A DNA stretch of 64,000 nucleotides from Candidatus Woesearchaeota archaeon. GTDB taxonomy: Archaea; Nanobdellota; Nanobdellia; Woesearchaeales; JAFGLG01. The notes beneath the pieces were generated by a model that saw nothing but the letters and a program-made list of their open reading frames with translations, made no database searches and had not been told where the DNA came from. Shown piece by piece: positions 453-32,872 of this stretch; the first letter of the stretch is position 1; every line of letters starts with the position of its first letter. The DNA lies in NCBI GenBank assembly GCA_016928155.1, contig JAFGLG010000017.1, positions 1 through 64,000 of the forward strand, in the 5' to 3' direction. The position numbers and the translations under genes are program-made.

Positions 453-692
453 AATAAAAAAAGTGATATCATCCTTATATTTGTTTGGGTCTGGCCATCC
501 GATTCTGGCTCATGTCAACCAAAGCATAGTATTGGTCCAAGCTGATTTCTAGCTTTGGCATATATCAACCCTGGAACCTTGGTGTTGGCCCTATTTTTCT
601 GATTCTGCAATGCATCGGAGCGCTTGCTTGAGTCCTTCTGTACTTTTTGTGCATAAAATTAATAAACAGAACATTTTCCATCAAGGCTATGC

Positions 693-843
693 AGCCCCGT
701 AGTGTAGTGGCCAATTGGAACAGAATTCCAGGTCATTCATCGCGGACTCTGGCATGTCGGGTTTTGACCTGATTTGGAGACATCCGTGGACCTCGGTTCG
801 AAAGTCCGAAGCTTGCTTTGGATCGAATGTCCGGGCGGGGCTA
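693..843 (+). tRNA. tRNA-Gln (CTG) with three introns
   Basis: The acceptor strands AGCCCCG (693-699) and CGGGGCT (836-842) pair fully, with discriminator A843. Removing 715-736, 753-781 and 803-829 leaves a 73-nt cloverleaf: D stem GTGT/TCAT, anticodon stem GCGGA/TCCGT with loop CTCTGGA (anticodon CTG), T stem CTCGG/CCGGG and loop TTCGAAT. Each junction forms a bulge-helix-bulge motif. In the D arm, helix GGCC/GGTC has bulges AA|T and AT|T. At 37/38, helix CTCT/GGAG has bulges GG|C and AC|A. In the T loop, helix TTCG/CGAA has bulges AA|A and TG|T. A T-run follows the gene. The identity is secure. Intron ends follow the rule of cutting after the second bulge nucleotide. Confidence 0.88.
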
Positions 844-899
844 TTTTTTCTTATGATGATTATGTTTCTTATGATAAAAAATATGGATAGAATGGAGCT

Positions 900-16925: not shown

Positions 16926-17024
16926 GCGCCGATGGTCTAATGGCTATGACAGCGGCCTTCCAAGCAGGTGAAGTCAGCCGTTTATCCGGGTTCGAAACTC
17001 TATGCGAAAGTCCCGGTCGGCGCA
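16926..17024 (+). tRNA. tRNA-Gly (TCC) with two very short introns
   Basis: Acceptor strands GCGCCGA (16926-16932) and TCGGCGC (17017-17023) pair perfectly, with discriminator A17024. Removing 16963-16975 (13 nt) and 16997-17010 (14 nt) leaves a 72-nt cloverleaf with anticodon loop CTTCCAA (anticodon TCC), T stem CCGGG/CCCGG and T loop TTCGAAT. Both introns form bulge-helix-bulge motifs: CTTC/GAAG with bulges CA|A and TC|A at 37/38, and TTCG/CGAA with bulges AA|A and AG|T at 59/60. The introns are near the smallest size that can hold the motif. Confidence 0.93.
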
Positions 17025-32229: not shown

Positions 32230-32278
32230 TTTTGTGGGATTATTATATCTTAATAAAGTTTTCAGAAAAAAAAAATGA

Positions 32279-32434
32279 AGCGCGGAGAGGGACTTTCGGC
32301 GCCTTGGCGTTGAAAGTAAGCCACGCCAGTGGCTGCACTCGAACCCCCGAATGATCGCTGTCTGTTTTATATCATCGCCGAAGCTCAATACAGCAATCTG
32401 CAGGCGATTGCCTTAGCCGCTTGGCTACCCGCGC
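32279..32434 (-). tRNA. tRNA-Cys (GCA) with two introns
   Basis: On the minus strand, acceptor GCGCGGG pairs with TCCGCGC, with discriminator T, as usual for archaeal Cys. Removing 32360-32397 (38 nt, between 37 and 38) and 32293-32337 (45 nt, T loop 59/60) leaves a 73-nt cloverleaf: anticodon stem ATCGC/GCGAT, loop CTGCAGA (anticodon GCA), T stem GGGGG/CCCTC, loop TTCGAGT. The T-loop intron forms TTCG/CGAA with bulges AG|T and AG|T. The anticodon motif CTGC/ACAG has one C-A mismatch, a relaxed bulge-helix-bulge. A T-run follows the gene. Confidence 0.9.
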
Positions 32435-32526
32435 TTGATGCGGCTAATCCTGTGTGAATTCTTGACCTTTATAAATATTATCTACTGAATCGCCTGATTC
32501 TGCGCCCCTTTCACTCTATAACCATT

Positions 32527-32634: not shown

Positions 32635-32657
32635 ACAAGTACAGAACCAAAAAAAAA

Positions 32658-32795
32658 CGCGCCTAGAGGGACTTTCAGGGCACTGAAAGTTCGCAACTTC
32701 AGTTGCCGCATTTGAACCCTCGATCTACAGCTCTCTTTGCTTCTATATCCAAAGCATAGAAGGCTGTCGCCCTATCCAGGCTAGGCTATAGGCGC
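32658..32795 (-). tRNA. tRNA-Arg (TCT) with two introns
   Basis: On the minus strand, GCGCCTA pairs with TAGGCGC, with discriminator G. Removing about 32733-32756 (24 nt, 37/38) and 32672-32710 (39 nt, T loop 59/60) gives a 75-nt cloverleaf with anticodon stem ACAGC/GCTGT, loop CTTCTAA (anticodon TCT), T stem GAGGG/CCCTC and loop TTCAAAT. The T-loop intron motif is TTCA/TGAA with bulges AA|T and AG|T; the central helix covaries with the G57-to-A57 change relative to the other tRNAs. The anticodon motif has one C-A mismatch, so that intron's ends are less certain. Confidence 0.9.
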
Positions 32796-32872
32796 ATCTG
32801 TGATAATGATAAAATACACCATTTTTAAATGTTCTGCTAAACTTTATATAAGAAACCCTATTGAAAGATTTT

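Follow-up and report, generated by a model that had tools for sequence, protein, structure and literature searches.

A glutamine tRNA gene with the anticodon CUG lies at 693-843 on the forward strand of the window, the stretch of DNA analysed here, which comprises the first 64 kb of contig C17 in a Candidatus Woesearchaeota genome (1.48 Mb, 17 contigs, 99.7% complete). As read from the sequence, the gene consists of four exons and three introns with a precursor of 151 nt, and is thus a multi-intron tRNA gene, a kind with two or three introns per gene. Removal of all three introns restores a standard tRNA, AGCCCCGTAGTGTAGTGGCCAATCATCGCGGACTCTGGATCCGTGGACCTCGGTTCGAATCCGGGCGGGGCTA, which is 73 nt long and is identified by ARAGORN as tRNA-Gln(ctg) over 1-73. 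In this spliced product all 7 of the 7 acceptor pairs, the stems, and the conserved nucleotides are intact. The sequence-only reading had described a three-intron tRNA-Gln(CTG) with introns of 22, 29, and 27 nt, and its coordinates proved exact. The unspliced 151-nt precursor gives no tRNA call in ARAGORN, the whole 64-kb window yields no tRNA from ARAGORN or from Rfam at the gathering score, and a genome-wide search with RF00005 at E<=10 misses the Gln(CUG) gene. Group I introns were also considered and judged unlikely, as the inserts are just 22-29 nt. The features of the locus are given in Table 1.

Table 1. Features of the tRNA-Gln(CUG) locus, in window coordinates.
Feature	Position	Strand	Description and basis
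AT-rich TATA/box A-like stretch (putative)	652-667	+	about 26-41 nt upstream of the tRNA; from sequence reading
Exon 1	693-714	+	tRNA positions 1-21; ARAGORN on spliced product, agrees with intron-free Gln(TTG) paralogue
Intron 1 (22 nt)	715-736	+	D-loop, about 21/22; central helix 709-712/731-734, inner helix 716-720/726-730; relaxed outer side
Exon 2	737-752	+	tRNA positions 22-37, anticodon CTG at 749-751; ARAGORN on spliced product
Intron 2 (29 nt)	753-781	+	canonical 37/38; central helix 747-750/776-779; strict BHB
Exon 3	782-802	+	tRNA positions 38-59; ARAGORN on spliced product
Intron 3 (27 nt)	803-829	+	T-loop, 59/60; central helix 797-800/824-827, outer helix is the T-stem; strict BHB
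Exon 4	830-843	+	tRNA positions 60-73; ARAGORN on spliced product
T6 run (possible terminator)	844-849	+	directly 3' of the tRNA; from sequence reading

At each splice site, exon and intron pair into a complete central helix (4/4 pairs; GGCC/GGUC, CUCU/GGAG, and UUCG/CGAA for introns 1, 2, and 3, respectively). Introns 2 and 3 sit in strict hBHBh' bulge-helix-bulge (BHB) motifs, in which a 4-bp central helix lies between two 3-nt bulges and the helices on either side, outer and inner, are well formed. The outer helix is the anticodon stem for intron 2 and the T-stem for intron 3. In intron 1, the 4-bp central helix forms, as do the 5' bulge and an inner helix of 5 bp, but no outer helix is adjacent; an internal loop of 705-708 (UAGU) against 735-737 (AUU) is followed by the D-stem (702-704/738-740). 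The intron 1 motif is relaxed and HBh'-like, a type that is accepted in the BHB intron family, and the other D-loop introns parsed likewise have no adjacent outer helix (outer run of 0 or 1). A good BHB with 3-nt bulges had been proposed for every intron, which holds for introns 2 and 3 and for all central helices but is slightly overstated for intron 1 because its outer helix is absent. The minimum-energy fold of intron 1 also has its 3' bulge paired and not exposed, which counts against the explanation favored below. Shuffling of the intron letters, with the splice sites kept in place, gave a complete central helix (4/4) and an inner helix as good as the real one at frequencies of 4e-5, 1.8e-3, and 5.7e-4 for introns 1, 2, and 3, respectively. 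Taken jointly, the motif quality of the three introns is not a product of chance.

Introns are widespread among the tRNA genes of this genome, whose inventory was drawn from targeted stretches and is incomplete. A T-loop-intron pattern has 22 matches in the genome versus 5 in a reversed control, and 14 tRNA genes are recognised once the T-loop introns are removed (Glu, Pro, two Ala, two Arg, Asp, Tyr, His, Gln, Cys, and three of class II; Gln after complete splicing). The T-loop intron site of the Gln(CUG) gene is thus occupied in at least 13 other tRNA genes; several of these additionally carry canonical introns, and Pro(TGG) has a D-loop intron. All four tRNA genes seen in the window (Gln, Gly, Cys, and Arg, with Gly read by eye) have an intron at the canonical site and another in the T-loop. 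The earlier view that a three-intron gene is unexpected in this genome is not supported, since T-loop, canonical, and D-loop introns are all common in it and across the order. The DPANN origin suggested at the same time agrees with the named relatives of its EndA, almost all of which are Candidatus Woesearchaeota or Nanoarchaeota; on the strength of these names the order is probably Woesearchaeales.

The other window genes are tRNA-Gly(TCC) at 16926-17024 (+), which has a 13-nt canonical and a 14-nt T-loop intron and is overlooked by tRNA finders, tRNA-Cys(GCA) at 32277-32435 (-), and tRNA-Arg(TCT) at 32657-32796 (-), the last two also interrupted both at the canonical position and in the T-loop. 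Three class II (Ser-like, G73) genes, L030/L068, L028/L073, and L064, have the 7-nt anticodon loops CTGAAGC, CTGATGC, and CTGATAC; these give the formal anticodons GAA and GAT and not a Ser anticodon. L068 and L073, which belong to different tRNA genes, share a near-identical 26-nt T-loop intron, TACTCTTGACCCCTTGAGTTTGGAAR, a likeness that suggests that an intron was recently copied, or that gene conversion took place, as is known from Thermoproteales.

The GTDB family of the source consists of this genome alone and therefore offers no close relatives for comparison; a contig scan with the DHH-family neighbor protein as the query gave no match. Across the order, a pattern search located the 5' end of a tRNA-Gln gene in 125 of 145 genomes; the loci examined number 130. 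Among the parsed Gln genes, 49 are intron-free and the remainder are interrupted at one or more of the same three sites. Strict thresholds return six three-intron Gln genes (this gene, L098, L110, L134, L173, and L189), and relaxed thresholds return eight in seven genomes (L141 and L198 added, one mis-parse discarded), a count that leaves out L091 (a tandem copy) and L136 and L142 (T-introns beyond the gene end). Three-intron tRNA-Gln genes with the same sites therefore occur in six other genomes of the order, all from other families, and the named relatives are Candidatus Woesearchaeota. Genome G108 has all three introns in each of its two Gln isoacceptors (TTG and CTG; L110 and L134), and an intron-free Gln gene was not seen there.

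The pairing between exon and intron is maintained across these genes. In a test set of 27 genes whose D-loop intron ends were set from the mature tRNA structure alone, the central pairs are 4/4 in 16 and at least 3/4 in 26. Exon nucleotide 20 (C/U), which forms the pair 711-732 with the intron in the present gene, covaries with intron G/A in the D-loop (12/1 versus 2/11, p=2e-4) and, among the pattern matches, exon nucleotide 57 (G/A) covaries with intron C/U in the T-loop (15/8 versus 6/45, p=6e-6); relatedness is ignored in both tests, and since the sequences are related the p-values are optimistic. Within this genome the covarying T-loop pair holds in 15 of 15 cases. This exon-intron covariation in the central helix supports the predicted splicing. 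The T-loop pattern has 442 matches in 165 genomes of the order versus 57 in the control, but only 57 versus 27 in the other orders of the class.

The boundary of intron 1 could alternatively fall at 714-737 (24 nt), which also gives a 4/4 central helix (TGGC/GTCA) and a scanner score equal to that of 715-736, and would leave a shorter D-loop. Such a cut would, however, lose conserved D-loop nucleotides, and the Gln(TTG) paralogue and the intron-free relatives carry CCAAUCAU, the same as the 715-736 splice product; the shifted boundary is quite improbable. Another alternative concerns the need for the gene. The one other Gln gene found in the genome is Gln(TTG), which is intron-free, and U34 is able to read G-ending codons. 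Gln(TTG) could thus decode CAG by wobble, the Gln(CUG) gene could then be dispensable in principle, and the latter might be a decaying pseudogene whose inserts merely resemble introns. This is very improbable given a spliced product with intact pairs, stems, and conserved nucleotides, inserts that match splice motifs in the shuffle test, and their recurrence with covariation in other families. CAG is moreover the major Gln codon (428 CAG versus 133 CAA in the window ORFs), so that a tRNA-Gln(CUG) should matter. A second, intron-free Gln(CTG) gene, which the sequence-only reading had named as the finding that would speak against its proposal, was not found as far as searched, and the sole match of the 151-nt query in the genome is the gene itself, although a further CTG gene with different introns may have gone undetected.

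The same genome contains one gene for EndA and one for RtcB, the pair expected in a host of EndA-dependent tRNA introns. The EndA protein (174 aa), encoded at 107828-108349 of contig C17, is of the single-subunit alpha type and is strongly conserved, with catalytic Tyr/His/Lys regions that are preserved across the order. No CSL or ASL loop was found in it, and a sequence-based alignment of the order reveals no insertion before LSLLEALYL relative to Methanocaldococcus jannaschii. Searches of the 99.7% complete genome with PF01974, PF02778, this alpha protein as the query, and an NCBIfam beta model detected no second EndA-like gene, although the negative for a beta subunit is soft because this model is weak (control genomes fall below its cut-off). 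Without a detectable second or fused beta unit and without CSL/ASL, the enzyme is apparently not of the (alpha-beta)2 or epsilon2 type, on this soft negative, and judging from the gene count it is probably a homotetramer. According to a review, relaxed introns are efficiently removed only by (alpha-beta)2 and epsilon2 EndA, and alpha4 enzymes are listed as narrow (PMC6379350). An alpha'2 EndA is nevertheless able to cleave a relaxed 37/38 motif when the precursor is of full length (PMC6379350), so this specificity rule is not absolute.

A beta subunit might exist that, like the one in Nanoarchaeum equitans, has diverged strongly and escapes the profiles, in which case EndA would be a hetero-oligomer of ordinary specificity. 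The closest solved relative is indeed the catalytic subunit of the N. equitans (alpha-beta)2 enzyme (E 8e-38); the alpha4 enzyme of M. jannaschii follows at 7.5e-31. The EndA of the order also has an invariant Trp four residues before the C-terminus, and N. equitans, M. kandleri, S. tokodaii, and ARMAN-2 are alike at this place, where M. jannaschii has Tyr. Set against these affinities are the soft negative of the profile and protein searches and the finding that in most of 145 genomes PF01974 at E<=1 detects a single gene. We consider a hetero-oligomer unlikely, if clearly less so than a shifted boundary or a pseudogene, and it challenges the homomeric state assumed in the favored explanation, not the reading of the introns.

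The anatomy, the recurrence, the covariation, and the single EndA and RtcB genes together make it highly probable that the locus is a functional Gln(CUG) gene with three BHB-type introns that belong to an order-wide class in Woesearchaeota at these same sites. The locus would be transcribed as a 151-nt precursor with D-loop, anticodon-loop, and T-loop introns. At each site the 5' exon and the 3' part of the intron would pair into a central helix of 4 bp. The lone alpha-type EndA, probably as a homotetramer, would cut inside the bulges, whatever the order of intron removal, and RtcB would then join the exons.

Related arrangements are known from other archaea. The tRNA-Pro(UGG) of Pyrobaculum islandicum has three introns at 25/26, 37/38, and 56/57, and 59/60 is already among the published intron positions (PMC4090602); in Thermoproteales the maximum reported is three introns per tRNA gene (PMC4033280). 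The present gene resembles these in that the D-arm, the anticodon region, and the T-arm each hold a single intron, in BHB or relaxed BHB motifs that by anatomy are EndA substrates, but it differs from the P. islandicum gene in isotype (Gln) and in its sites (21/22, 37/38, and 59/60). Thermoproteales have a CSL-bearing (alpha-beta)2 EndA, whereas the woesearchaeote host has a lone alpha-type enzyme. Multi-intron tRNAs are also known in the Asgard archaea Atabeyarchaeia and Freyarchaeia (PMC11291895), where, similarly, most tRNA genes are interrupted, often at non-canonical sites and more than once; this lineage is unrelated, and the Woesearchaeota set found here is dominated by a single T-loop site, at which the 3' end of the intron repeatedly reads YGAANN ahead of U60. 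N. equitans, also of DPANN and the nearest solved EndA relative, has a second EndA subunit, which was not detected here, and also split tRNA genes. The M. jannaschii alpha4 EndA, listed as narrow (PMC6379350), is likewise a single short alpha protein with no CSL/ASL insertion, but the substrates in Woesearchaeota, by anatomy, include relaxed D-loop and many T-loop introns.

Because three-intron tRNAs are known from Pyrobaculum, the Gln(CUG) gene is of a known type, in a lineage for which no earlier report on tRNA introns was found by a literature search that mostly could not reach subscription journals, so that such a report may exist. Only 20 tRNAs exceed the Rfam cut-off in the whole genome despite its 99.7% completeness; standard tRNA finders miss intron-bearing genes, and Woesearchaeota genomes can therefore wrongly seem poor in tRNAs. 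The point of interest is the order-wide intron load beside an EndA that, as predicted from gene content, is apparently homomeric. On balance, we lean toward the view that Woesearchaeota remove relaxed, non-canonical, and multiple tRNA introns by a homomeric, alpha-only EndA without CSL/ASL, and the rule for broad specificity would then be incomplete. The order offers many natural substrates for asking whether a one-subunit EndA can be of broad specificity, and it may also inform on the spread of introns to one preferred T-loop site.
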